IMG/VR virus record: IMGVR_UViG_3300009474_000010 | Coordinates: 1 to 25,430 of that record | Length of the DNA stretch: 25,430 bases | Direction: 5' to 3' (one strand) | Origin: a virus | Part shown: piece by piece, positions 3-23,762 of the stretch | Position numbering within the stretch: position 1 is the stretch's first letter | Layout: each line of letters starts with the position of its first letter | The notes under the pieces: model-generated | What the model saw: the letters and a program-made list of their open reading frames with translations, nothing else | The model's database searches: none | Told to the model about the DNA's origin: nothing | Program-made: the position numbers and the translations under genes

Positions 3-251
3 ACCCGAGTCGAAATCCCCATCGCTGGCAATGTTGTCGCCATCACGGCAACCGTCACCGTCATCCCTCAAGCGCATGGCGGATTCCTCTCGGGCTTCCC
101 CGGCACATCGTGCCTGAACTGGGGAGACAACCGTGACGCCATCGCCAACACCACTGTCCTGCCGGTGACCAACGGCAAAGTCACGTTGAACGCGTCAACC
201 CCCGTCCACATCATCGTGGACATGCTGGGTACTCACTCACCGACATCGTGA
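3..251 (+). CDS. C-terminal end of surface/cell-wall-type repeat-domain protein (5' partial)
   Basis: The open frame enters from the left edge with no start and ends at TGA 249-251, giving about 82 residues. The visible part is beta-rich: an alternating T/V stretch (ITATVTV), then GGFLSGFPG, a central LNWGDN, TTVLPV, NGKVTLN and a final HIIVDMLG. From memory, this order (GFL..P.G, LN...G, V.PV..GKV, VDV.G) is that of a domain repeated in actinobacterial surface and secreted proteins. In a phage such a domain may end an endolysin or a host-binding protein, but the catalytic or N-terminal part lies outside the window, so the role is inferred. The stop overlaps the next start by four bases (GTGA), indicating translational coupling to the nuclease gene. 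Confidence 0.7.
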   Translation, partial: TRVEIPIAGNVVAITATVTVIPQAHGGFLSGFPGTSCLNWGDNRDAIANTTVLPVTNGKVTLNASTPVHIIVDMLGTHSPTS

Positions 252-916
252 GGTTCATCGTCGCTCCGACCGAGCGCGACCCGCACATCGCTGGGCTTGC
301 CACGAGGGTGTCCATGCTGCCCGAGCGGCACGGATGCGACATCCTCTGGCGAGCACAAAACGAATGGTGGGGAGTGCAGCGGAAGGAGATCAAAGACTTC
401 CTTGCAAGCATCCAAGACGGACGGCTAGCACGTGAAGTGGCCATGATGAAACGACTACCCATCAAGGTGGTCATCATCGAAGGAAGGCTGAAGTTCACCA
501 CCGAGGGCACGTTGCTGATGGGCAAGTGGACATCGAACGTCACACGCACGCAACTAGAGGGCATGGTCATGTCACTCATGGAGAAAGGGGTACACGTAGT
601 ATGGACGGACGACACTCGGGACACCGCACGGTGGACCCAATCGTTCGCTGGGTGGTCATCGAAGAAACGACACGACGCATTGTCGCGACGGCCAGGCCCG
701 GTCAGCCCGTGGGGATCGGTTACCGACGAGGACTGGTCGATCCACCTACTCCAAGGCTTCGACGGACTTGGATCAGAGAAGGCAAGAGCCATCGTCAGCC
801 ACTTCGGCGGGGTTCCGTTCTCATGGTCGGTTACGGAGAAGGAACTACTGGAGGTTCCCGGCATTGGAAAGGTGTTGGCGAAGCGTCTGATCCGAGCCCT
901 CGACCACGAACGCTGA
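248..916 (+). CDS. ERCC4-type nuclease with helix-hairpin-helix domain
   Basis: A 222-residue protein starting at GTG, coupled to the upstream gene through a GTGA overlap. Residues about 28-80 carry the ERCC4 (XPF/MUS81/Hef) nuclease signature: an Asp at 31, VQRKEIKDF at 43-51, SIQDGRL at 54-60 and IIEG at 76-79. The family consensus is ERKxxxD; here the first Glu is Gln44, while Arg45, Lys46 and Asp50 are kept. The C-terminus (about 166-222) has two helix-hairpin-helix elements, LQGFDGLG and LEVPGIGKVLAKRLI, which bind branched or nicked DNA non-specifically. Family knowledge suggests structure-specific cutting in phage recombination or repair. Whether the Gln substitution lowers activity cannot be told from sequence. 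The assignment to the family is firm; the substrate is not. Confidence 0.88.
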   Translation: MRFIVAPTERDPHIAGLATRVSMLPERHGCDILWRAQNEWWGVQRKEIKDFLASIQDGRLAREVAMMKRLPIKVVIIEGRLKFTTEGTLLMGKWTSNVTRTQLEGMVMSLMEKGVHVVWTDDTRDTARWTQSFAGWSSKKRHDALSRRPGPVSPWGSVTDEDWSIHLLQGFDGLGSEKARAIVSHFGGVPFSWSVTEKELLEVPGIGKVLAKRLIRALDHER

Positions 917-1148: not shown

Positions 1149-1306
1149 CAGACGAAGACACGGAGATGGTCACCAAATACACGCTGGCACAAGCCAGGGC
1201 ATACACAGCACAAGCGGAGGTACATCAGATATGGGCAACTATGACACAAGCGCAACGACACTTGGTAATTTCGGGCGTAAACGACAGACTGGCGAACCCG
1301 GTGTGA
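1145..1306 (+). CDS. possible 53-residue small protein overlapping the methyltransferase start
   Basis: A GTG-started frame of 53 residues (MTDEDTEMVTKYTLAQARAY...ANPV) with AAGGAG about eight bases upstream. It overlaps the preceding stop by four bases, as in other gene pairs of this block. Its TGA at 1304-1306 again makes a GTGA with an in-frame GTG (1303) of the methyltransferase. If the methyltransferase starts at 1231, the two genes overlap by 76 bases, which is unusual; if it starts at 1303, this is a normal coupled small gene. No family is recognised. The sequence is Gln/Ala-rich and probably helical. Confidence 0.5.
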   Translation: MTDEDTEMVTKYTLAQARAYTAQAEVHQIWATMTQAQRHLVISGVNDRLANPV

Positions 1307-2112
1307 CCGAGATCAAACACCCGGCCAAGTACTCCAAGACGGTATGGCTTGCGATCTATCGAGACGTGGCGAAGCTCGTCAACATGCACCCCGAGAAGCA
1401 CGTCTGGAACGTGCTCGATCCGTTCGGCGGGGTCGGCGGGATATTCGATCTTCACGCCTTGTCGATGGAGTACGACGCCAGCGAGGTTGACTTCAAGATC
1501 ACATGCGTGGAAATCGAACGGGAGTGGGCAGACCAGGCACCCATGCACGACAGGTACCGGCAATTGAACGACAACATGCTGGCCATGGACTTCTTCGACT
1601 TCGCTCATCACCCGTCCGCGCACGAATCGTTCGACATCATCATCACGTCACCGACCTACGGCAACCGGATGGCCGACCACCACGAGGCGAAAGACGACTC
1701 TGTACGCAACACCTACCGGCACAAGCTTGGCAGGCCGCTGTCGGAAGGGTCGAGTGCGGGATTGCAGTGGGGCGACGCCTACCGTGACTTCCATCGCGCC
1801 GCATGGGATGAGGTGTTCGAGTTATTGAAACCGGGCGGGTACTTCATCCTCAACGTGAAGGACCACATCCGTAAAGAAGTCAAGCAACCTGTCGCCTCAT
1901 GGCATCGGGCGTACTGCCAGAGCATCGGGTTCACCAAGGTGGAAGAGACACGGGTTCCGGTGCAAGGCAACCGGCAGGGTGAAAACGGCGAAGCGCGTGT
2001 AAGCCACGAGCACGTGTACGTCTTCCGTAAGCCGTACACCGTGTCCATTGACGACATGACCGCCGCCGAGCACGCACAGCAGTCGATCCTCAAGGGACAG
2101 GGAATCGTGTGA
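1231..2112 (+). CDS. DNA methyltransferase (N4-cytosine/N6-adenine type, SPTY variant)
   Basis: A class I S-adenosylmethionine-dependent DNA methylase of up to 293 residues. Visible motifs in order: HPAKYS at 30-35 (motif X region), VLDPFGGVGG at 61-70 (AdoMet-binding motif I), CVEIERE at 92-98 (acidic motif II), TSPTYGNRM at 139-147 (catalytic motif IV, consensus SPPY or DPPY) and LLKPGGYFILNVKD at 198-211. The second Pro of SPPY is Thr; I recall this variant as a recurrent actinobacterial and phage subgroup. It probably modifies phage DNA against host restriction, and no partner restriction enzyme is present. Start choice: ATG 1231 has GGAGGT nine bases upstream; GTG 1303 would give 269 residues beginning just before HPAKYS and a GTGA overlap with the preceding small frame. 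TGATG links it to the next gene. Confidence 0.9.
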   Translation: MGNYDTSATTLGNFGRKRQTGEPGVTEIKHPAKYSKTVWLAIYRDVAKLVNMHPEKHVWNVLDPFGGVGGIFDLHALSMEYDASEVDFKITCVEIEREWADQAPMHDRYRQLNDNMLAMDFFDFAHHPSAHESFDIIITSPTYGNRMADHHEAKDDSVRNTYRHKLGRPLSEGSSAGLQWGDAYRDFHRAAWDEVFELLKPGGYFILNVKDHIRKEVKQPVASWHRAYCQSIGFTKVEETRVPVQGNRQGENGEARVSHEHVYVFRKPYTVSIDDMTAAEHAQQSILKGQGIV

Positions 2113-7604: not shown

Positions 7605-9125
7605 TCAGAAGCCTGCGTACTGTGCCGACTGAGCGATCTGCTGGTTCATCAGTTCTTCTTGAGCAAGCTGACGCTGAAGCTGATCGGTGGTACCAGTAGT
7701 GATTGGCGCTGCGGCCATCTGCCTGGCGTACGCGGCCTGAAGGTTGGCGGCTGCTGCTTCGCTCTGCGCTGCCGTGGTCCGGTAGAGAGCGGCGAGTTGC
7801 GGCTGATTTTGGTCGAGGTACGAGGCGGTGTTGTTGGCCTGCGCTGTGGAGCGCAAGTTGGACTGCGACGCCCGGTTCAACGCTTGCTCAAAGATGGGAG
7901 CAAACTGTGCTTGCGCCTGCATCATGGACTCGTAACGTTTCTGCTCCTGGTCCTGAGCTTTCTGCTGTTCGCGAGCCTGGAGCATGAGGGCGGGCAGGCT
8001 GGTCGAGATGCCAGCCATGAAGTTTTTGAGGCCAGCGGTGTCCTTCTGGTCGATGAGCAGAGAAGTCGATGCTTCGTATTGCAGCATGATGTCGTCCAGT
8101 GCCGAACCTTCGATGCCGTACATCCCAGCAAGTTCAAGGATCGTGTCGCGAGTTTCGCCAACGGCCTTGGTGGCCGTTTCCAGCTTGGTGTCGTCGCCGC
8201 CCCACAATGCCCGAGACACACCGAAGAGGGCAGCGCCACCAAGTGCGGCCCAACCGGCAGGGCCAGTGCCAAGCCCGAGAGCAAGGGCTGCGCCGCCGCC
8301 AAGACCAGCACCCATGATCGCGCTGGAGCCACCCTTGTCGAGAATGGACTGCTCGCCACCGATGTTCATGCCGTCGATGAACTGCGAGACCATGTAGCCA
8401 GTGCCAGCAACGCCAGCACCACGCATAAGGGAAGTTTTGGTGACATTGACACCAAGGTTCGACACTGCTGAACGCAACCCTGTCGCACCTGCCTTGGCTT
8501 GCGCTGCCCCGGCTTGGCGTGCGGCCGCGCCAGCCACGTCGTCGGCACCTTGGGCTGCGGCTTGGCCAGCGATATTCACCAAGTCGTCGGTTTGTGCAGC
8601 AAGGGCGCGAGTCGTACCAGCAGTAGGGCCAGCGGTAGGGCCAGCGGTAGGGCCAGGGCCTACCGCCGGACGCACTGGAGTGATGTTGCCAACGTTGACC
8701 GCTGGACCTTGCGGAAGATTGGCCGGAAGCTTGCCGGTCGGTACCGGCATGTTGCCAGTGGGGACTGGCATGTTGCCAGTGGGGACTGGCATGTTGCCGG
8801 TCGGGACAAGAGCGCCTCCGGTGCCACCAGGGGGAAGTGCTGGCCGACCGCCAACCGGGGGGATGTTGCCCATGCCCTGCTGAACGATCTGCCTCCCACC
8901 CATCCCGCTCGGGTTGACCATCGGGGAATTGCGAAACGGGCTGTTGCCTTGGAATGCGCCAGCGCCGATGGCACGGTTGGCCTGCTGCGCTGCGCGACGC
9001 TGCACTCGATTGGTCGCGATGTCCCGATCCAGTTGCTCAAGGAAGCCTGAAGTTTGACCTGAACCGCTGTTGAGGAACTGGTCAACAACCTTGCGGTCTC
9101 GTCGCGCGTTGGGGGTCAGTGCCAT
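7605..9125 (-). CDS. internal virion protein with tandem repeats and glycine-zipper segment
   Basis: A 506-residue protein. Residues 1-80 are polar and Arg/Gln-rich. Residues about 105-135 contain a repeated NMPVPTG unit, and about 155-170 a repeated GPTA unit, both encoded by short tandem DNA repeats. An Ala-rich part follows, then a Gly/Ala segment (MGAGLGGGAALALGLGTGPAG) that could insert into a membrane. The C-terminal third is Gln/Ala-rich and helical. The layout fits a T7 gp14-like membrane-associated ejection protein, though sequence similarity to one cannot be shown here. GAAAGG precedes the ATG at 9125. Confidence 0.65.
   Translation of the reverse strand: MALTPNARRDRKVVDQFLNSGSGQTSGFLEQLDRDIATNRVQRRAAQQANRAIGAGAFQGNSPFRNSPMVNPSGMGGRQIVQQGMGNIPPVGGRPALPPGGTGGALVPTGNMPVPTGNMPVPTGNMPVPTGKLPANLPQGPAVNVGNITPVRPAVGPGPTAGPTAGPTAGTTRALAAQTDDLVNIAGQAAAQGADDVAGAAARQAGAAQAKAGATGLRSAVSNLGVNVTKTSLMRGAGVAGTGYMVSQFIDGMNIGGEQSILDKGGSSAIMGAGLGGGAALALGLGTGPAGWAALGGAALFGVSRALWGGDDTKLETATKAVGETRDTILELAGMYGIEGSALDDIMLQYEASTSLLIDQKDTAGLKNFMAGISTSLPALMLQAREQQKAQDQEQKRYESMMQAQAQFAPIFEQALNRASQSNLRSTAQANNTASYLDQNQPQLAALYRTTAAQSEAAAANLQAAYARQMAAAPITTGTTDQLQRQLAQEELMNQQIAQSAQYAGF
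8623..8658. repeat. 12-bp tandem repeat, three copies
   Basis: GTAGGGCCAGCG occurs at 8623-8634 and 8635-8646, and as GTAGGGCCAGGG at 8647-8658. It encodes GPTA repeats in the internal virion protein on the minus strand and is a likely slippage site that varies in copy number. Confidence 0.9.
8728..8811. repeat. 21-bp tandem repeat, two exact and two diverged copies
   Basis: Units at 8749-8769 and 8770-8790 are identical; 8728-8748 and 8791-8811 are diverged copies. The unit keeps the reading frame and encodes the repeated NMPVPTG segment of the internal virion protein. Confidence 0.88.
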
Positions 9126-9149: not shown

Positions 9150-10652
9150 TTACTGGTAGGCCATCATCTGGCTCATGAACGAGTTCGCCTCGGCAATGAG
9201 CCGGGCGTTGCCACTTGCAAGCATCCGTCCAAGACTCTGCTGCGTTTCATTGAGGTCAAGCCCCATGCGATCCACTTGCTGCTCAAACTGGTTCTTGATG
9301 TCGGACTCTTTCAAGCCGTATTCCTTCGCCAGACTTGAAAGCCCTTTGTCCACGTTCTGCAAGTTCGCACGTTGCAAATCGTTGGCCGAGTACTGGCTTG
9401 TGAGCTGGTTGTACTGGCCTTCCGTGCCGATCCTGTTGATGTCTTGCTGGTTCGCTATGCCGCGAGCATCCTGACGGAACCCGATCTGCTGGCCCTCGTA
9501 GCCGAAGCGAAGGTTCTGACGCTGGTTGCCGATCTCGCGATCGCGCTCGTCAATCGACTGGTTCGTCCGGTCAAGCTGGAGCGTGTTGGCGTCCATCGAC
9601 CGGCCATACTGCCCGTAGATGTCCTGCATGTTGTCACCGAAACCGGCACTCCCGAACGCACCTCGTGCTGCTGCGTCACTGCTGGCTGCTCGCGTCTGGG
9701 TGCCCCGGTTGGCGAACGCTTCTTCTTGCGTCTGTGCAAACTGCCGACCAGCGAATCCGTACTGAGCCATGAGATCGCGTGCTTGTTGCCCGGCGTACTG
9801 GTCACTCGATTGGAACTGGTTGTAAGCAAGGTCTTGGCGCTCGTTGAGGAACCCGGTCTGGTCGTTGAGGAAGCCCTGCTGGCGAGTGAAGTCCTGGCCA
9901 ACGAGGCCGCGTGAAACATCCAACACACCACGTTGGTTGGCGTTGTTGATGAGCGAAGCGCGATTGTCGTCACGAGCCAGGTCCACGTTGCGGAATTGCT
10001 GCTGGCCGAGCACGCCGAGGTCGTTGTACAGGTTCGTCTGCATGTGGCCAAGGTTCATGTCATAGCGGCCTTGCGCCATTGCCGATCCCTGGTCGAACTG
10101 CGTCTGGAGGTTGAGCGCGTTGAGATCCTGAATCTGCCCGAACTGGTCAATCAGCGAATTGCTCTGCTGCGTGGATGCTTGCTGATCGTTGAACGCCGAC
10201 TGTTGCTGACCAACGATGTCGCGCACGTTGCCAAGGTTTGTCCCCCATGCGGCTGCTTGCTGTTGCCCTGCTGGAGCTAGCGCAAAGAACGTCTGCGGAT
10301 CCATGCCCGACTTCATCGCCTGCTGAACAAGTTGCGGCGAATACATGTTCTCGTAGTACTGCCTGTTGGTCATCCGCGGATCGCTGGCACCACCCGTCAG
10401 AGCGTTGACACTTTCCCCGGCTACTCCCTGAATGAACCCCTGCGTGCGCTGAGGTGCAGCCGAGTTCCACCCCGACCACGCACCCCGGTTGGAATACTCA
10501 GGCGTAGGCGTGAATGTGGAAGTTGATCCAGCCGTAGACGTAGACGCAGACGCGGGTGCCGATGTTGTTCTGCCTTGACTGGTCGAACGCTGTCGGTTGG
10601 CCGAAGGATTTACGGGGGCGGGCGGGTTGGAGTTGGGTACGCCAAGGGCCAT
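9150..10652 (-). CDS. Gln-rich coiled-coil internal virion protein
   Basis: A 500-residue protein starting MALGVPNSNP. The first 50 residues are Pro/Ser/Thr-rich and disordered; the rest is dominated by Gln, Asn and Asp with helical periodicity (for example QDFTRQQGFLNDQTGFLNERQD). No Cys or enzymatic motif is seen. Gene order directly after the adaptor and before two other large low-complexity proteins suggests a podophage internal or ejected protein. An alternative is a minor tail protein. The composition is typical of phage virion proteins that must unfold on ejection. Confidence 0.6.
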   Translation of the reverse strand: MALGVPNSNPPAPVNPSANRQRSTSQGRTTSAPASASTSTAGSTSTFTPTPEYSNRGAWSGWNSAAPQRTQGFIQGVAGESVNALTGGASDPRMTNRQYYENMYSPQLVQQAMKSGMDPQTFFALAPAGQQQAAAWGTNLGNVRDIVGQQQSAFNDQQASTQQSNSLIDQFGQIQDLNALNLQTQFDQGSAMAQGRYDMNLGHMQTNLYNDLGVLGQQQFRNVDLARDDNRASLINNANQRGVLDVSRGLVGQDFTRQQGFLNDQTGFLNERQDLAYNQFQSSDQYAGQQARDLMAQYGFAGRQFAQTQEEAFANRGTQTRAASSDAAARGAFGSAGFGDNMQDIYGQYGRSMDANTLQLDRTNQSIDERDREIGNQRQNLRFGYEGQQIGFRQDARGIANQQDINRIGTEGQYNQLTSQYSANDLQRANLQNVDKGLSSLAKEYGLKESDIKNQFEQQVDRMGLDLNETQQSLGRMLASGNARLIAEANSFMSQMMAYQ

Positions 10653-10662
10653 GTCAGATCAC

Positions 10663-11352
10663 TCAGTACCCTTCCCAGCCGACCAGCCAGTTCGGGAGCA
10701 TACCCATCGTGGTCGGAATGAACTCGCCGGGCGCGTTGATGTACTCGCCCATGTCGATGATGTCTTGGATCTTCGATTCGTACAACTGGAACGCTTCCTG
10801 CCAGCGAGGGTCGCGATCCTTGCGAAGTGCCTTGTACTCGGCATAGTCGTAGGCCATCTCTAGCCAGCCGGTGGGAGCGTCGATGTTGCCGGTGCCCGCT
10901 GCGACATCAAGCGCGGCAGGCAACCGGCACACATGCAGGGTGAGCGTGCCGTCAGTACTGGGTACGGGGAAGAGCTTGATAGTGAGCGTCGGTGCGTACC
11001 CGAACGTGGTGAAGAACACAGGGTATCCAGAAGATTGATCCTGCCGATCCCACCAGACCTGATTCATCGCCTCAAAGGCTCGCGGCTCCAGTGGGATGTC
11101 TCGCGTTGCGTCGCCGTCAGGGGTGAAGTACACGTGTTTGATGTGGAGCACGTCATCGCTGACGGTGTACTCGCCGTCGTCTGCGGCCACGTCGATCGTG
11201 TCGGTATCCCAGTAATGCCGGGTGCGTCGGGCAATGTCACGAATGCCTTCGTTGAGCCAGCGGCGAAGCTGCACGTCTGTCCATTGAGCCGCGACGGACT
11301 CATCCAGCAAATCCCGCAGTGCGGTCGTGGCGTCAGCGACGGTCGTAGCCAT
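10663..11352 (-). CDS. head-to-tail adaptor (gp4/gp11-like)
   Basis: A 229-residue protein with an N-terminal helical part (ATTALRDLLDESVAAQWTDVQLRRWLNEGIRDIARRT, residues 8-44), a central beta part and a C-terminal helical part (MAYDYAEYKALRKDRDPRWQEAFQLYESKIQDII). The N-terminal pattern of helix, W-T-D-xx-L-xxW-LNEG, helix is the hallmark of podophage adaptor proteins (T7 gp11, P22 gp4 families). It would form a ring under the portal to which the nozzle docks. It is placed after the fibre gene rather than next to the portal. A lysozyme activity, as in P22 gp4, is not evident. Confidence 0.8.
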   Translation of the reverse strand: MATTVADATTALRDLLDESVAAQWTDVQLRRWLNEGIRDIARRTRHYWDTDTIDVAADDGEYTVSDDVLHIKHVYFTPDGDATRDIPLEPRAFEAMNQVWWDRQDQSSGYPVFFTTFGYAPTLTIKLFPVPSTDGTLTLHVCRLPAALDVAAGTGNIDAPTGWLEMAYDYAEYKALRKDRDPRWQEAFQLYESKIQDIIDMGEYINAPGEFIPTTMGMLPNWLVGWEGY

Positions 11353-11371
11353 GGATCATGATGATAGCCGA

Positions 11372-13594
11372 CTACCACCCCTCGTTGCTAAATGCTGTGG
11401 TGAGCGTAGCTATTTCCGTGGGCGTGAGTTCTCGGGGAATGATTGCCAGGTGAGCCATGTTGCCTCTCATGACGGAACCCGATCTGACAGGGTTGGTGCT
11501 GGTGTCGAGTCCGGTGCCAGTCGGCGTTCCCGTAGTCGCCATTGTGCCGTTGACGTACAGGTCGGGGCATGATGTGAGGTCAGGGTAATTGACAACAACC
11601 AGATACCACGGTCCGATACTCAGAGTCGGGCCGTTCGTGGTGTTTACCTCTCCGACGCCATTTCGCAACGATGCTCTGATGGCACCTGATTGGAGAATGA
11701 CGCCCCATTGAGTCTCCAAGAAAACCACTCCTTGAGTGCCAGCACCCGTTGCTGAACGTCGGAGAATGAACACGACGGACATGCCTGCACCGGATGCAGA
11801 AACTTCGTAGCTCGTTCCATGAGAAGCGTCAATCACCCCATTTGGAGGGGCTGATCCAGGGAAGTTGGGATAACTGAACCCATCCCCTCCAGCCTGAGAT
11901 GCCAGCGTAACGCTGGCACCAACGACGCCATTGTTGGCTGAAACAATGTCTACTGCCGGACTGGACGTGTCACGATAAGGCCAGTAACCGACTGGAGAGA
12001 ACGAGTTGATGATGTTGTAAACAGTGAAAGCGGAACTCGTGATCTCCGCAGGGGTAAGCGCTCGCGTCCATCCGTACACTTTGCGGATCTGCATGTCATT
12101 GACAGTGCTGATCGTCACGCTGTTATCAATGTCACTGAACTCGTTGAGGAACGCATTTGAGGATGTATCGACAATGGCTTGGTTGACCCATAGCTGCCTG
12201 CCATCAGCCTCGGACACATCATGCACGTAAAACACGGAGTTCCAGGTTGCGTAGGCAAGATTGTCCGCACGGAAAACGTAGGATCCTCCACCACTGCGCG
12301 GCACCACTACGGTAATGCTGTAATCGGAAACGTTTTGAGTGACGTTGACCAATACAGCGCCCCCCATGTTGAGAATGGTGTAAGCGCCAGTACCCCCAGC
12401 TAAAACTAACGAGTTGTCGGGAACTTTGATTTCCAACGAAATTGTAAAATCGCTTTCATCATGCAGATTCCCTACTTCGGGAACCGTCCCTTGAAGCAAC
12501 CCGGTGTAAATTACGTTAGAAACAGCCGGGTCCGTAGTGTCGTCCGCAATAATTGTCCATTCATCGTCAATGTACTCAATGCACTTGAAACCAGGCTCCA
12601 TTGGGAAGAACTCATCCTGTGTCAGCCCGTCCACAATTTGGAGCCCTGTTCCGTCCCCTTGACACGCTGCTGGGAGGGCAAACATATCGGCAGTTGCGAA
12701 AGGCGATGTGGATTGCGAAATTGACTTGCTGATCCCGAGGCAATCTGGATTGCCAAAGTCTGCGGCCATAAAAGGCTCGCCGTACACCCAGTCCTGAGTT
12801 ACGCCGTTGCAGATCTCTCGATAGGCCAACCGGAACAGGGCGTTGGGATAGGTGGTGAAGGGAGCCGCGCCGGTGTCGATCGTCACATCACCCACGTTTC
12901 CATCAGCGAACGCTTCGGATACAGCGGTATCAGCCCACGCACATGCCGCGCGATATTGAAACTTGTAACCCCACCAGCAGTCGGAGCCACCGACCGCGCC
13001 AGGCGTGCCATCGGTCTCGGGGTATCTGAAGATGACTTCGGTGTTGTCGGTGCCGTTGTCGATCGGTGGGCCGACCCCATCATCGGTGGTAAACACCTTC
13101 GCCTTGATGGAAGATTCGGCTGTGCGTAGAACGGGGACCGATGGGCAGTTGCGCGTCGTGCTCACGAACGAATCGGTCGCCTCAAACACGGCACGAAGCC
13201 GGATCTGAAAGGTGTATTGCGTGCCGGGAACGAGACCTGAAGTTGACCACGATGTCTTCGGGTAGGTGTACGTAGCCCATGTGTTGGGCGAGATTTCTAA
13301 AATGCGTACTTGCACTTCGGTGGGGGTGATGTCATCGCCATCGGGTAGCTCCCACGTAAAGGATGCGGAGTACTCGTTTTTGGTGATGGTGATATTTGCA
13401 GGAGCACGCAAAGGAATGATGCCAGCGTTGAACGTGGCGAGCTTGAAGTCGTAGAAGTCGGTGGAGAGCCGGTTGAACTCGTCCTGCACGAGACGTTTCA
13501 TCTGATCCATGGCGCGCTTGAGTTGCTTGGGATCGTCCGTGCTCGGCATTGGAGGAAGCTCTAGCCGATGACGGCGCGCCTTGAACTCGACCAT
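11372..13594 (-). CDS. tail fibre/receptor-binding protein with FnIII and two LamG-like domains
   Basis: A 740-residue protein. Residues 1-55 are helical and charged (virion attachment or trimerisation). Residues about 63-145 form a fibronectin type III domain (APANITITKNEYSASFTWELPDG ... GLVPGTQYTFQIRLRAV). Residues about 380-520 and 560-735 are two concanavalin/LamG-like folds, each ending in a similar motif (GWTRALTPAEI and IIPRELTPTEI). Such modules bind glycans, so host surface recognition is inferred. Cysteines are frequent in the middle part. DNA encoding the C-terminal two-thirds is clearly richer in A+T than its neighbours, suggesting exchange of the receptor-binding part. GAAAGG precedes the ATG, four bases from the upstream stop. 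Confidence 0.8.
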   Translation of the reverse strand: MVEFKARRHRLELPPMPSTDDPKQLKRAMDQMKRLVQDEFNRLSTDFYDFKLATFNAGIIPLRAPANITITKNEYSASFTWELPDGDDITPTEVQVRILEISPNTWATYTYPKTSWSTSGLVPGTQYTFQIRLRAVFEATDSFVSTTRNCPSVPVLRTAESSIKAKVFTTDDGVGPPIDNGTDNTEVIFRYPETDGTPGAVGGSDCWWGYKFQYRAACAWADTAVSEAFADGNVGDVTIDTGAAPFTTYPNALFRLAYREICNGVTQDWVYGEPFMAADFGNPDCLGISKSISQSTSPFATADMFALPAACQGDGTGLQIVDGLTQDEFFPMEPGFKCIEYIDDEWTIIADDTTDPAVSNVIYTGLLQGTVPEVGNLHDESDFTISLEIKVPDNSLVLAGGTGAYTILNMGGAVLVNVTQNVSDYSITVVVPRSGGGSYVFRADNLAYATWNSVFYVHDVSEADGRQLWVNQAIVDTSSNAFLNEFSDIDNSVTISTVNDMQIRKVYGWTRALTPAEITSSAFTVYNIINSFSPVGYWPYRDTSSPAVDIVSANNGVVGASVTLASQAGGDGFSYPNFPGSAPPNGVIDASHGTSYEVSASGAGMSVVFILRRSATGAGTQGVVFLETQWGVILQSGAIRASLRNGVGEVNTTNGPTLSIGPWYLVVVNYPDLTSCPDLYVNGTMATTGTPTGTGLDTSTNPVRSGSVMRGNMAHLAIIPRELTPTEIATLTTAFSNEGW

Positions 13595-13597
13595 GGC

Positions 13598-15499
13598 CTA
13601 TCCTTTCGCGATTCGTGCTCGGGTGCCGGTGGCCAACGAAACTGCGTGAATCTTCGGAGCGGGTTCGGAGGTGTCGTTGGCATCGGTCACGATCTTCACC
13701 TGGATGTGCGTGGCCTGGAAGTTCGTGACGACATCTTTGTGAAGCATCTGAGGGTTGGTGTTCGCTGCCATCGTGAAGGTCGTTGTCACAGGGGCTACCG
13801 GGGTGCCGTCTGCTGCGTAGCCGGTGAGCGTGATGGCCACCGTTGCCTGGTCGTCCGATGCCGCTGTAGCCAGGAGATGGATCTCTTGCACTGTGACGAC
13901 GCGCGTGCGGGTTTCCACGAGCGGCTGCGACTGCCATGTGTAAGTGTCCGCAAGCACGTCGGGTGAAGCGGTGTACCACATGGGCGACGAGTTCTTGTTG
14001 AGCTTGTGCGGGAACAAGTAGAGCCGGTTGCTGGAGTTCACCACGTCGGCCACGTTGCACGCCACGTTGGTATTCGTCGGGGTGTCGATCCGCCACCACG
14101 ATTCGGTGCGAGAGTCGTAGATGAAGTTGTTGGGCGCGACCACCCACGGGTTCCACCACCCGAACCGGCCTCGGTTGCCAAGGTATTGAAGGTCTCCAGC
14201 GTGGTTCCAGAAGAATCCTTCTAGTTGCGGGGAGAGATGTCGTGACCCTTCGCCACCTTCCCACACGTACACCCCGTTAGATGTTCCGTACACCAGCCCA
14301 AAGTTTGTCTTCGCGGGGATGCTGTAGGCTCCGTGTGTGGATTCGACGTAAGGGAGTTGAACGACTGTGGGGTTATCAAGATCCCCACGCACGAGCACAG
14401 CGCCCTCTCGATCCTTGATGAAAATGATTTCGTCAGCCGTAATGGATGCGACAGCGCCAGAGCGGAACGGTTTCTCTTCACCGAACTGAGCCGTCTCAAA
14501 ACAACCGAACCCAAGCGTGCCATAGAAGTCTTGAACCGGCGAGTACGTGACCGACTCCGAGATGATGCCCCACTCTTCGCTTCCGCCAGTGAGTTCACCC
14601 GTCTGCTTCTGTGTCCGCGTGGTGGCGACCATTCGCCCCTGATGGGCGACAAGGTAGCACGCGTCGGGGAACGTCTCGTCTGCCGTGCCATCGTGCGTTC
14701 CTCCCAGGAAGCCGGAATCGGTCAGTGTGTTGTCGGTTGGGTTCGGGAAGATCCCGACGACGCGGTTGTGCGAGCCGGGGTATGTGGTATTGGTGTAGGT
14801 GTCGTAGTCGGTGAGGGTCTGCTCATTCGCCGTAAGCGTGCCAGATGTCCAAGCACCCGCATCAGCCTGGTAGCCGGGAGAACCAAATGCCACCCACGCC
14901 ACGCAATCGTCTGTGCGCGCGTCTTCGATTGAGTTGCGGACGCGCAGCGGAATGAAGTTGCCACATCCGATCTGCACGGTGGATGAGGTGAACGCCGCCA
15001 TTGACTGCGCGCATTTCGCCCACATGAGATCATGTTGTGCGGATGAAGAATCAAACAGACGGTGAAGCTGTGCAATCACTGTCCAGTATTCATCACCGGA
15101 ATAATCCGACGTGGAGTCATACGGGAATCCGTACATCGTGTAAACGCCAGCGCGATCCGAGTCTGCGGCCTGCTGATCCCCGTACACGAACATGTCGCCG
15201 CGTACATAAGCATCTAAGAGAAAGTTCTCGTGAAGACCCGAAATGAAATGGTTTTCTGCATTTTGTGCTGTAGGAAGACGGTTGGTCGTCTTGCCTTCGA
15301 TCAGCTTCGGTAGCGGGACCAATGCTCCCGTTCGATCGGCGCAGCATCGAGCAGTGTTGTCCACTGTTGCCGACCCGTTGCCAGCGAGGATGGAACCTTC
15401 TTGCGTCTCGACCACAGTGCGCCCTGAGCCATAGTGGTAGTCGCTGAAGATGCCGGGGGTGAAGTCGGTGATTTCAATGAACTGTGCATCTTCACGCAT
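13598..15499 (-). CDS. tail nozzle / stabilisation protein (gp10/gp12-like)
   Basis: A 633-residue, almost entirely beta protein starting with ITDFTPGIFSDYHYG, the typical short N-terminal arm of podophage tail-nozzle proteins. Repeated blade-like elements follow, for example YLVAHQGRMVATTRTQ, IIFIKDREGAVLVRGD, FGLVYGTSNGVYVWEGG, LQYLGNRGRFGWWNPW, FIYDSRTESWWRIDTP, as in the beta-propeller of P22 gp10 and T7 gp12. It would form the hexameric nozzle distal to the adaptor. The ATG at 15499 overlaps the end of the preceding gene by eight bases, so both are co-translated. Fold assignment is by pattern only; the adjacent fibre and adaptor genes support it. Confidence 0.75.
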   Translation of the reverse strand: MREDAQFIEITDFTPGIFSDYHYGSGRTVVETQEGSILAGNGSATVDNTARCCADRTGALVPLPKLIEGKTTNRLPTAQNAENHFISGLHENFLLDAYVRGDMFVYGDQQAADSDRAGVYTMYGFPYDSTSDYSGDEYWTVIAQLHRLFDSSSAQHDLMWAKCAQSMAAFTSSTVQIGCGNFIPLRVRNSIEDARTDDCVAWVAFGSPGYQADAGAWTSGTLTANEQTLTDYDTYTNTTYPGSHNRVVGIFPNPTDNTLTDSGFLGGTHDGTADETFPDACYLVAHQGRMVATTRTQKQTGELTGGSEEWGIISESVTYSPVQDFYGTLGFGCFETAQFGEEKPFRSGAVASITADEIIFIKDREGAVLVRGDLDNPTVVQLPYVESTHGAYSIPAKTNFGLVYGTSNGVYVWEGGEGSRHLSPQLEGFFWNHAGDLQYLGNRGRFGWWNPWVVAPNNFIYDSRTESWWRIDTPTNTNVACNVADVVNSSNRLYLFPHKLNKNSSPMWYTASPDVLADTYTWQSQPLVETRTRVVTVQEIHLLATAASDDQATVAITLTGYAADGTPVAPVTTTFTMAANTNPQMLHKDVVTNFQATHIQVKIVTDANDTSEPAPKIHAVSLATGTRARIAKG

Positions 15500-15788
15500 G
15501 TTTGCCTCTCAAGTGGGCAAGCAACTGATCTAGGTATCGCAGCTCTACGTTGTATCCTTCGATTTCGCCGTTCATCTTGGCGATCTCGGTGGAGTAGTGC
15601 TTCGACGCGAGGTCGGCTGCATGTCTGGCATCGCTTACTGTAGCCCCGTCAGTGATTGCCTGCTGGTAACCCGAGACGCGAGATTCAATCTCTGTTGACG
15701 CGAGATCGCCGCGCTCTCGGTAGAGCGCGGCGAGTTCTCTTGATGCTCGGTTGTATGCCTCAAGGGCGGCGTCGAGCGGGCTGCTCAC
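15492..15788 (-). CDS. small coiled-coil virion-region protein
   Basis: A 98-residue protein starting at GTG 15788, coupled by GTGA with the preceding stop. It is helical throughout, with heptad-like patterns (LDAALEAYNRASRELAALYRERGDL and STEIAKMNGEIEGYNVELRYLDQLLAHL). It lacks Cys and membrane segments. Proteins like this often lie between capsid and tail genes of podophages and may be assembly factors; the exact role is unknown. Confidence 0.75.
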   Translation of the reverse strand: MSSPLDAALEAYNRASRELAALYRERGDLASTEIESRVSGYQQAITDGATVSDARHAADLASKHYSTEIAKMNGEIEGYNVELRYLDQLLAHLRGKHA

Positions 15789-16465
15789 TTCTTGACTGCC
15801 GCTACCTTCTTGGCTACGGCTTTGCGTGCCAGTGCGGGCGGGGCATCGTCGTCGGCGTAGGGGATCTCGCCCACTGTCACTGACTGCGGATCGTCGGTCG
15901 TTGCCGTGTCGTTGTCACCCGCTGTTGGGATGTTGAACACTGAATCGACATCGCCGCCTGGCGAATCCTCTACAGCGGTAGGCGAACTCGATGTGCCCGT
16001 GGCGTTCGGGGTCGGTGCCGCCTGCTCCTTGGAGACAAGACGCGTGACCTGCTTGGTGAGTAGAGCGATCTGGTTCTGGAGGGCCTCGATGTCGGTCTCT
16101 TTGTTGACAGACTTGCTGTTCGGGTTGAACGCGCCGAGGTGTTCACCGGATGGATCGTTGATGAGCATGACGATCTCCGTGTCGCCTTCCAAGTCAAACA
16201 CGCGCACCTTGGGGCGGCGAGCATCCCAATGCTCGGGGGAGTGAAGCCCGTCGCCATAGTTGTAGCGGGCTCGCATCTTCTTGTACATCCGCGTGCGCTC
16301 ATTGGCTGGCGGAATGTCGGGGATGTTCGGGTTGCCGAACAGGGTGCAAGCCACGTTCCACGGAACGATGACATCGCCACCGGGTTCGATGATGCGCTTC
16401 GCATTGTTCTGCATGAAGTCGAACGATTTGTCGTCTTCGTTGATGATCTTGACGAACTCGGGCAT
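15785..16465 (-). CDS. capsid-downstream virion-module protein with disordered tail
   Basis: A 226-residue protein. The first 110 residues are folded and begin VKIINEDDKSFDFMQNNAKRIIEPGGDVIVPWNVACTLFGNP; this pattern (target peptide, EPGG, VPW, LFGNP) is common in a family found downstream of phage capsid genes. Residues about 120-150 form a short coiled coil (DIEALQNQIALLTKQVTRLV). The rest is acidic and disordered, with a basic end AVAKKVAAVKK. TAGGAGA lies eight bases before the ATG. It is the first gene after the terminator at 16525-16560 and is preceded by a putative promoter motif, so it may start a new transcription unit. The function is unknown. Confidence 0.75.
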   Translation of the reverse strand: MPEFVKIINEDDKSFDFMQNNAKRIIEPGGDVIVPWNVACTLFGNPNIPDIPPANERTRMYKKMRARYNYGDGLHSPEHWDARRPKVRVFDLEGDTEIVMLINDPSGEHLGAFNPNSKSVNKETDIEALQNQIALLTKQVTRLVSKEQAAPTPNATGTSSSPTAVEDSPGGDVDSVFNIPTAGDNDTATTDDPQSVTVGEIPYADDDAPPALARKAVAKKVAAVKK

Positions 16466-16509
16466 TGTGTTGGTCTCCTAGTTGATGACGTGCAGGGGTG
16501 TTCAATCAG

Positions 16510-16523
16510 GAGTGTAGTACGCG
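16510..16523 (-). promoter_or_regulatory. candidate late promoter motif, copy 1
   Basis: The minus strand reads CGCGTACTACACTC, identical to a second copy at 19987-20000. It contains TACACT, a good -10 hexamer, about 45 bases before the ATG at 16465 and immediately after a terminator hairpin. No convincing -35 is visible. Promoter function is inferred from repetition and position. Confidence 0.5.
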
Positions 16524-16524
16524 A

Positions 16525-16560
16525 AAGAGCCCTCATCGCGTTCCCGCGATGAGGGCTCTT
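16525..16560 (-). terminator. strong intrinsic terminator after capsid genes
   Basis: A perfect 16-bp stem (16525-16540 with 16545-16560) and a four-base loop lie in the 147-base gap between the decoration gene end (16613) and the next leftward start (16465). On the minus strand the stem ends GGGCTCTT followed by T, giving a short T-run. It would cap the highly expressed capsid transcript. Confidence 0.85.
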
Positions 16561-16612
16561 CACCCGGCTTCCCCTGCACGGCTGTACGGGCGGGGGAATG
16601 GTCAGCCGAGAA

Positions 16613-17131
16613 TCAGGCTCCGGCCTCAAACCTCACGACCGGCGAAGGCGTGATGAAAGCGAGGGCGGTGTCCGTCTGCCCGGCGAGCGTGCCGCCGAGG
16701 TAGTAGCCGACATAGACGCCGTCGTCTACGGCTGCACCAGCGACGACATCGAAGTCGCCAGTGGTGGTGGCCGGTGCCGACACGAGGTCGTAGGCAGCGG
16801 GGTCGTCGGATGCGTCGTGAAGCACGAGGCAGATGCCTTGCGTGCAGACACGGACCTGCTGGCCAGCCGTAGCTGCCTCCAGGGCTGCGCCCACGAATCG
16901 CCACGAATCTCCACCAGTCACAGCGGCTGTCATGGGGGTGACAGTCGCTGGAGCGGTTTCGGTCGGAGCGACCAGCATGAGTGCCTGGCCCTTGAGGATC
17001 GTGCCAGCAGCCTGCCACGATTCGACGGACTGGTTGCCGTAGATGATCTCGTTGCCAGCGTCATCGACACCTTCACGGAAATCACTGACGGTGCGGTGAG
17101 CACCGTTCGGGTTTGCGAGGATGTTGCTCAT
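16613..17131 (-). CDS. putative capsid decoration/stabilisation protein
   Basis: A 172-residue protein, Ala/Thr/Val/Gly-rich and beta-predicted, directly downstream of the major capsid gene with a 21-base gap. It contains AAGTILKGQALMLVAP, a pattern of lambda gpD/DUF2190-like head decoration proteins, and later GICLVLHDASDD and GVYVGYYLGG. AGAAGGGA precedes the ATG. A strong terminator follows, implying high expression together with capsid. The family call is from position and composition and is less certain than the capsid call. Confidence 0.65.
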   Translation of the reverse strand: MSNILANPNGAHRTVSDFREGVDDAGNEIIYGNQSVESWQAAGTILKGQALMLVAPTETAPATVTPMTAAVTGGDSWRFVGAALEAATAGQQVRVCTQGICLVLHDASDDPAAYDLVSAPATTTGDFDVVAGAAVDDGVYVGYYLGGTLAGQTDTALAFITPSPVVRFEAGA

Positions 17132-19946: not shown

Positions 19947-19986
19947 GATGGGTGCCTTTCTGGCGTAGGTGCTGGTGGTCAACCGC

Positions 19987-20000
19987 GAGTGTAGTACGCG
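19987..20000 (-). promoter_or_regulatory. candidate late promoter motif, copy 2
   Basis: The minus strand reads CGCGTACTACACTC, an exact match to 16510-16523, in the 56-base gap between two small genes and about 40 bases before the ATG at 19946. It contains TACACT as a possible -10. It would start transcription of the 46-residue gene, the 110-residue gene, scaffold and capsid. Confidence 0.5.
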
Positions 20001-21917: not shown

Positions 21918-23762
21918 TTATTGACTGCGTGTCGCTTGACGCTTGCCTGGGGCTTGGCCAAGTTCTCCGGCCATCGCTTTCATCTCCTGCACGCGAGAGG
22001 CTACCTCGCGCCAGTTCGGCCACTTCTCAGCTTTGAGAACTTCGATTTCGTCAATCGCCCCCATCGCGAACAGACGCTCGGCCTGCGACTGCCGGGCACC
22101 GCGACTCGTCGGATGTTCGGAACCGGCGTCGGCCATGATCTGGAAACGCATCGGCGTGCCGTCTTCTTCAGAATTGTCCGTGGGAGCAAGCGTGTAGAAC
22201 TGTCGGGCACGAAGAGCAAGACGCGACTTGGTGCCATCAACGCCCACGGTCGCGACCATGCGTGGCTCGGTGTAGAACTCAGCGATCAACGCTGCTTGCT
22301 TGGAAGTGACACCACGCAGACACCTCTCCAGATTGCGAAGGGTTGCGCGCACACGCACGAACGCAGAGTCCTGCACGCTGGATAGCACGTCTGTCGAGTT
22401 GCGCCCCGATGGGGAGAAGCCTCGGACAATAGCGGAGAGGCCAGAAATGGTTTCGATCTTGGACTCGTAATACTGGATGAGGTTGATCTGGTCGGGGTGA
22501 AGAGACGGAGGCTCCAGCCAACCGACCTCATCGCGACTCGCTCCCTTGATCCGCTGTCCAGGTCGGTTCGTCTTGGTGGTCGAGTTGGCACGACGACCCT
22601 CGTAGAAGATGGGGTTGCCAACGAGCATGATGTTCTGCTCGATGTTGGCCAGCATCCGATTGATGGACTCCTGCGGCGAGGTGAGGAACTGCACGAGCCC
22701 CGGCCCGTACCACTCGCCAGTCTCAAACAACACCATGCGATCGTAAGGGTGCGTCGTAAACGCGTAGATGTCATCGGCATACTCGTTCATGAGTACGGTG
22801 TTGCCGCACGTGACCACACACTTCCAACGGTCAATGACGCGTGCAGTGCCTTCTTGGATCGAATCATCCTCAGCGTGCGTGATGGTTTCGTGGGTACGAA
22901 TCCACGTCTCCAGCACCACAACGGTGGGATCTTCGTTGATCGAAACCTTGTTGCCCCGCTCAGACGGCGCGAAGCGAGAGTTCGTAGAAGGTGAGATTGC
23001 AGCCAGGTTGACGCGTGGCTCGGTAGCGGAAGTCTTGCTCTCCAGCGCGTGCGGCGACTCGTCAATGTCCTCGGTGTGCCCAGCCATGACCCGATCAACC
23101 GCTCCGGGGAATGCCCGGTCAAGATCGTCCAACGTCATGATCTTTGCTTCCGTGATGTAGCCAAGATCCTTCGGAGACTTGGCAAGAGGATCGGGGTAGA
23201 TCGTGAACGGGTCAACGCGACGGAAAGCCGCATCGCCATAACCGTCAGCGAGCCATGGCTCCCACGTCGTCTTCATGTAACCGATCTGGTAGGTGCAGAC
23301 ATCCCACAACATCCGCTCGATCTCGGCGTCCAAGTCGTTGCCCTGGAACGTTGCCTTCAGGGCAGCGTTCATGTGCTCGGCTACCTTGTCGTAGTAATCA
23401 GCATCGGGGCTAAAGGGAGGGATGACTGGAGTGGTCTCCGTGATCGGACGTTGATCCGTCATCCACGCAACCATCGACGCAACGATCGGCCAGATGTTGG
23501 AAATCTCAGGGGCAGGCATCCACGGTTCCGCACGAGGCGACCACGTGCGATTGTTCAAGACGCGATAGTTCTTCTTCCACTGGCCCACAAGAGGACGACG
23601 AGCATCACGAGCACGGTAGAAGAGTTCCCGCATCGTCTGCGCGATCTGCGCTTCCTTGATCTCATCGGACTCAGGAACCGGCTCGGTGATACCACGAACC
23701 GACCCCGACGCAAGGGCATCGCCCATTGCCTGCATTGAAGCCTGGTCACCAATGTCACTCAT
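21918..23762 (-). CDS. portal protein
   Basis: A 614-residue protein. After a polar N-terminus, residues about 45-100 carry RPLVGQWKKNYRVLNNRTWS..EPWMPAPEISNIWPIVASMVAWM, typical of podophage portals. Next come DADYYDKVAEHMNAALKATF, WDVCTYQIGYMKTTWEPW and FRRVDPFTIYPDP (wing strands), and the helical FETGEWYGPGLVQFLTSPQESINRMLANIEQN leading to the stem/crown. The C-terminus is helical (EIEVLKAEKWPNWREVASRVQEMKAM). The order terminase, zinc ribbon protein, portal supports the call. It forms the dodecameric DNA entry ring. A hairpin in the gap just upstream (23778-23800) may affect expression. Confidence 0.88.
   Translation of the reverse strand: MSDIGDQASMQAMGDALASGSVRGITEPVPESDEIKEAQIAQTMRELFYRARDARRPLVGQWKKNYRVLNNRTWSPRAEPWMPAPEISNIWPIVASMVAWMTDQRPITETTPVIPPFSPDADYYDKVAEHMNAALKATFQGNDLDAEIERMLWDVCTYQIGYMKTTWEPWLADGYGDAAFRRVDPFTIYPDPLAKSPKDLGYITEAKIMTLDDLDRAFPGAVDRVMAGHTEDIDESPHALESKTSATEPRVNLAAISPSTNSRFAPSERGNKVSINEDPTVVVLETWIRTHETITHAEDDSIQEGTARVIDRWKCVVTCGNTVLMNEYADDIYAFTTHPYDRMVLFETGEWYGPGLVQFLTSPQESINRMLANIEQNIMLVGNPIFYEGRRANSTTKTNRPGQRIKGASRDEVGWLEPPSLHPDQINLIQYYESKIETISGLSAIVRGFSPSGRNSTDVLSSVQDSAFVRVRATLRNLERCLRGVTSKQAALIAEFYTEPRMVATVGVDGTKSRLALRARQFYTLAPTDNSEEDGTPMRFQIMADAGSEHPTSRGARQSQAERLFAMGAIDEIEVLKAEKWPNWREVASRVQEMKAMAGELGQAPGKRQATRSQ

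Follow-up and report, generated by a model that had tools for sequence, protein, structure and literature searches.

In modular receptor-binding proteins of phages, the C-terminal part, which determines specificity, is exchanged (PMC8262889, PMC10408124). The Klebsiella phage KP32/K11-type receptor-binding proteins (PMC8262889) and the E. coli O-antigen tailspikes (PMC10408124) carry a conserved N-terminal anchor followed by a variable, often exchanged distal part, and the fibre described here likewise has a conserved anchor and a variable, probably exchanged distal part. It differs from both in its tip, which is LamG/ConA-like and in which no depolymerase was recognised; the likeness is one of architecture, and no sequence relation was found. 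With respect to the Laminin_G_3 family (PF13385), the outer part of the tip scores above the family cut-off, while the inner domain has no Pfam match, its likeness to the fold coming from a model of low confidence.

The fibre is encoded in a virus record of 25,430 bases (IMGVR_UViG_3300009474_000010, positions 1-25,430), the whole of which was analysed and is called the window in the following. Its portal is distantly homologous (21-23% identity, with E values as low as 6e-13) to those of Arthrobacter phages of the genus Jasminevirus, such as Brad, whose annotation places a tubular-tail gene next to a connector gene, and of Microbacterium phage Shocker, and this remote likeness is all that points to a possible actinobacterial host; the fibre and the gene next to it (g13598), however, find no match anywhere in the phage collection. 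A variable tip of low G+C is the well-known, textbook pattern of modular receptor-binding proteins and is not new. In this case, the boundary between anchor and tip is set from data, not by eye, and for a podovirus lineage that has been little sampled; this is of help in predicting hosts. Furthermore, the G+C step alone overstates 'acquisition', the low-G+C inner domain being shared and homologous, and the outermost domain the most divergent.

The fibre gene, its neighbours and its domains

The fibre gene (11372-13594, minus strand) is a single open frame encoding a probable modular receptor-binding protein of 740 residues, with a homologue in the same slot of two related contigs, L002 and L003. 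It lies between g13598 (13598-15499, minus strand), which encodes a nozzle-like (by position) protein of 633 residues with no Pfam or PHROG match, and the adjoining SU10-type adaptor gene (10663-11352, minus strand; PF24175, E=1.5e-24). A P22/SU10-type portal is encoded further upstream (21918-23762), and the gene set of the window suggests a podovirus-like phage. The window also encodes an ERCC4/HHH nuclease-like protein (248-916, plus strand) and an N6/N4 DNA methylase-like protein (1231-2112, plus strand), and it contains two 27-bp copies (16497-16523 and 19974-20000), 85% identical and both with GAGTGTAGTACGCG, which are possibly a regulatory site.

The protein begins with a conserved N-terminal segment (residues 1-62; 13409-13594, minus strand), a predicted helix with the motif R-R-H-R-L..P..DEFNRL, which probably serves as the anchor. 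It is followed by an FnIII domain (residues 64-135; 13190-13405, minus strand; PF00041, 28.7 bits against a cut-off of 25) and by a shaft part (residues 136-285; 12740-13189, minus strand) with no Pfam match and 71% identity to L002 over residues 161-285. An inner LamG-like domain (residues ~286-525; 12020-12739, minus strand), homologous in L002 and L003, contains the deepest G+C dip, and the outer tip (residues 516-740; 11375-12049, minus strand) includes a Laminin_G_3 domain (residues 605-729; window 11408-11782; PF13385, 43.8 bits against a cut-off of 27.6).

The initial annotation had equated the low-G+C part with two LamG-like domains. This stands for the outer one on the basis of the Pfam score just given, but for the inner one, where the dip is deepest, it depends on a fold model, as no Pfam family, PF13385 included, was matched (its L003 homologue reaches PF13385 at a sub-threshold 15.1 bits). 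Modelled alone, the inner domain gave a low-confidence structure (pLDDT 40 on average, about 50-69 in the core), which superposes on ConA-like lectin jelly rolls with Z about 12 over about 170 residues, and may thus adopt a ConA-like jelly-roll, LamG-like fold. Its best fold matches are the binding domains of clostridial neurotoxins; at about 12% identity and with so poor a model, this implies a shared ConA-like jelly-roll fold class only, and not a relation to the toxins. The only PDB sequence match of the inner domain, 35 residues of a designed TIM barrel with no stretch passing alone, was judged spurious. A PDB search with the sequence of the outer tip returned nothing credible, and the full-length AlphaFold model of the fibre (pLDDT 33) was unusable.

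Base composition and codon use along the fibre gene

The hand counts on which the low-G+C claim had been based (23/60, 25/60, 27/60, 39/60 and 41/60 G+C) were reproduced exactly on recounting, and the sliding-window analysis that it called for does reveal a step. The window as a whole has 58.7% G+C, and its lowest 500-bp value (48.8%, at 12090) falls within the fibre ORF; outside 11372-12800, the minimum is 52.4%. The dip lies inside the interval originally proposed (11372-12800, 53.0% G+C), but in raw G+C it is narrower: a two-change-point fit spanning 9150-17131 places the best-fit low segment (49.7%) at 11930-12640, between flanks of 58.6% and 58.7%, and 11372-12000 has 55.8%. The likelihood gain of this fit was equalled in 1/200 block-resampled nulls. 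At residue 273 (window ~12778), not far from the edge anticipated near 12800-13000, G+C in third positions goes down from 70% to 57%. The stretch 12801-13594 has 57.6% G+C, and residues 1-300 give a synonymous chi2 of 56.

Synonymous codon choice is, instead, atypical across residues ~300-740, as the codon-use check proposed at the outset revealed: chi2 for residues 301-740 is 158 on 41 degrees of freedom, and the maximum among 110 overlapping windows of equal length in the other genes is 118. When the codon preferences of the other genes are applied to the amino acids of the fibre, the expected G+C content is 56.1% for residues 286-515 (observed 50.9%) and 60.5% for residues 516-740 (observed 55.3%), and both segments thus have a synonymous deficit of 0.052; among windows of 225 codons taken from the other genes, the synonymous deviation has an SD of 0.014 and a minimum of -0.035. 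These values bear on one rival explanation of the dip, namely that lectin-like sandwich domains favour amino acids whose codons are rich in A+T (N, I, Y, D, T) and have no special history. Amino-acid make-up does account for 0.033 of the dip of about 0.085 in residues 286-515; the synonymous share is, however, the larger one, and the amino acids of residues 516-740 predict a G+C content above average where a lower one is observed. Since the dip is mostly synonymous, amino-acid composition is ruled out as its sole cause by this decomposition, and we consider an account by composition alone very improbable.

Relatives and divergence along the fibre

A search for relatives with g13598 as bait yielded two contigs in which the gene order is conserved, L002 (76% identity in this upstream gene) and L003 (53%). 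A third relative, L006, was found through the N-terminus of the fibre, and a profile search added more distant loci (L009-L021). The fibres of L002 and L003 are colinear with that of the window up to residue ~515. Identity to L002 is 71% over residues 1-62, 64% over 63-160, 71% over 161-285, 41% over 286-515 and 23% over 516-740; the corresponding values for L003 are 58%, 48%, 44%, 25% and 17%. In all three pairs, L002 against L003 being one of them, identity declines over the same portion of the fibre, the anchor being 52-71% identical and the outer tip 17-29% identical in any pair (window against L002: 23%, blastp E=0.003). With L006, the anchor alone is significantly shared (E=1.6e-10, other segments 0.04 or worse), and an early impression that L006 retains the inner LamG-like domain was dropped (LamG1 profile E=0.04). 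In loci more distant than L002, L003 and L006, residues 1-62 found no significant match.

A two-step fit to the comparison with L002 gives identities of about 69%, 37% and 23%, the drops falling at residue 322 (window ~12631) and residue 510 (window ~12067), close to the G+C edges, although identity declines gradually and the support interval is wide. The inner domain (residues 286-515) is 41% identical to L002 and 25-26% identical in the other pairs, so that its branching order is that of the upstream gene, with the same sister relation.

The inner domain of L002 has near-normal G+C (60.5% vs 62.6%) and a synonymous deviation of -0.001. In L003, the synonymous shift towards A+T is strongest at residues 156-278, just after the FnIII domain, reaches -0.032 in the inner domain and is absent from the outer part. 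On the tail side, the genes at window 9150-10652 and 7605-9125 are 46% and 50% identical to L002, their neighbours being 72-87% identical, and have no G+C dip despite this divergence.

Origin of the tip and the slot across loci

The variable module of this podovirus-like fibre is its distal part. The step in G+C and codon use, the conserved anchor and the step in divergence close by occur together in this gene, and we lean towards exchange of the tip with a lower-G+C allele as their probable cause, in a modular receptor-binding fibre subject to both exchange and rapid divergence. In the proposed mechanism, the helical, conserved N-terminus would fix the fibre to the tail at the adaptor/nozzle region, as gene position suggests; FnIII and shaft domains would follow and, then, two lectin-like sandwich domains as the tip, which probably contacts glycans of the host surface. 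From residue ~300 on, the tip half would evolve through exchange with other alleles and rapid divergence, the outermost domain being presumably the most exchangeable. A related phage with a lower G+C content probably supplied the present tip through recombination, which would be why the synonymous codons of the tip are not yet matched to the genome.

Exchange is favoured by the G+C step, the synonymous deficit, the steps in identity to L002, the divergent outer tip, the fact that L006 keeps the anchor only, and the usually low G+C of slot ORFs. Against it stand the homology and colinearity of the inner domain in L002 and L003, with backbone branching, the near-normal G+C of this domain in L002, the lack of a donor, the gradual identity step, and two neighbouring genes that are equally divergent from L002 (46% and 50%) and have no G+C step. 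Because of the homology of the inner domain, the composition of its L002 counterpart and these divergent neighbours, composition is suggestive and not proof. The modular acquisition suggested by the initial annotation thus keeps part of its ground, as G+C and codon use step where homology weakens and the anchor is conserved and the distal part variable, but it meets an inner domain that has colinear homologues in both L002 and L003. Relative to these two, the inner low-G+C domain is not new: it is shared with L002 (41%) and L003 (25%), branches like the upstream gene and has near-normal G+C in L002.

The tip may, instead, have been inherited vertically and have diversified in place, several times faster than the backbone, through co-evolution with the host, its lower G+C reflecting relaxed codon selection or mutation towards A+T. 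That identity is lost in the same fibre part in all three pairs, that the inner domain keeps the sister relation of the backbone (41% vs 25-26%) and that slot ORFs are low in G+C in many relatives all agree with such a history, to which we give real weight while holding it somewhat improbable: the synonymous shift exceeds that of every control window of other genes and is missing from the homologous domain of L002, and the outer tips of the window and L002 show hardly any relation (23% identity; blastp E=0.003). Chimeric assembly, or the action of a diversity-generating retroelement on the tip, has nothing specific in its favour besides a tip that is hypervariable among relatives. The window holds no template/variable-like repeat pair, no reverse transcriptase was found among the genes scanned, and the fibre ORF is unbroken and follows the same order as in two independent contigs, all of which make these origins extremely unlikely, although the part of the genome beyond the window may carry such an element.

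The phage collection gave no match, either by DNA similarity to window 11000-16000 or by tblastn with the fibre and g13598; genome-contig scans found no relatives. Scans with single fibre domains, whose reach is limited to fairly close relatives, found no donor, and, within the same reach, neither a donor nor another carrier of the distal module was found on a phage of another backbone.

Across 15 loci, the ORF in the slot between g13598 and the adaptor gene ranges from 147 to 840 residues, and its G+C is low relative to windows of the same length in its own locus (median percentile 0.14), a tendency for which the KS p-value (9e-5; 2e-4 without this window) is no more than indicative, given the kinship between the loci and the doubtful start of some ORFs. 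We tentatively entertain that, in a podovirus lineage not yet described, receptor-binding modules are exchanged at this slot in general: proteins differing greatly in size and sequence would be swapped there, low G+C being a lasting mark of this exchange and not of one event. In L009-L021, where the slot extends from the g13598 homologue to the next conserved adaptor-sized gene, short ORFs of 147-268 residues replace the fibre of 740-840 residues, and L020 has an ORF of 501 residues that appears beta-helix-like by eye. As 0/9 slot proteins scanned from distant loci exceed a Pfam cut-off, their roles are suggested by position. In L020, a separate gene two ORFs past the slot (13787-14638) matches Laminin_G_3 near threshold (25.1 bits against 27.6), and LamG modules thus recur near the slot in a distant relative.
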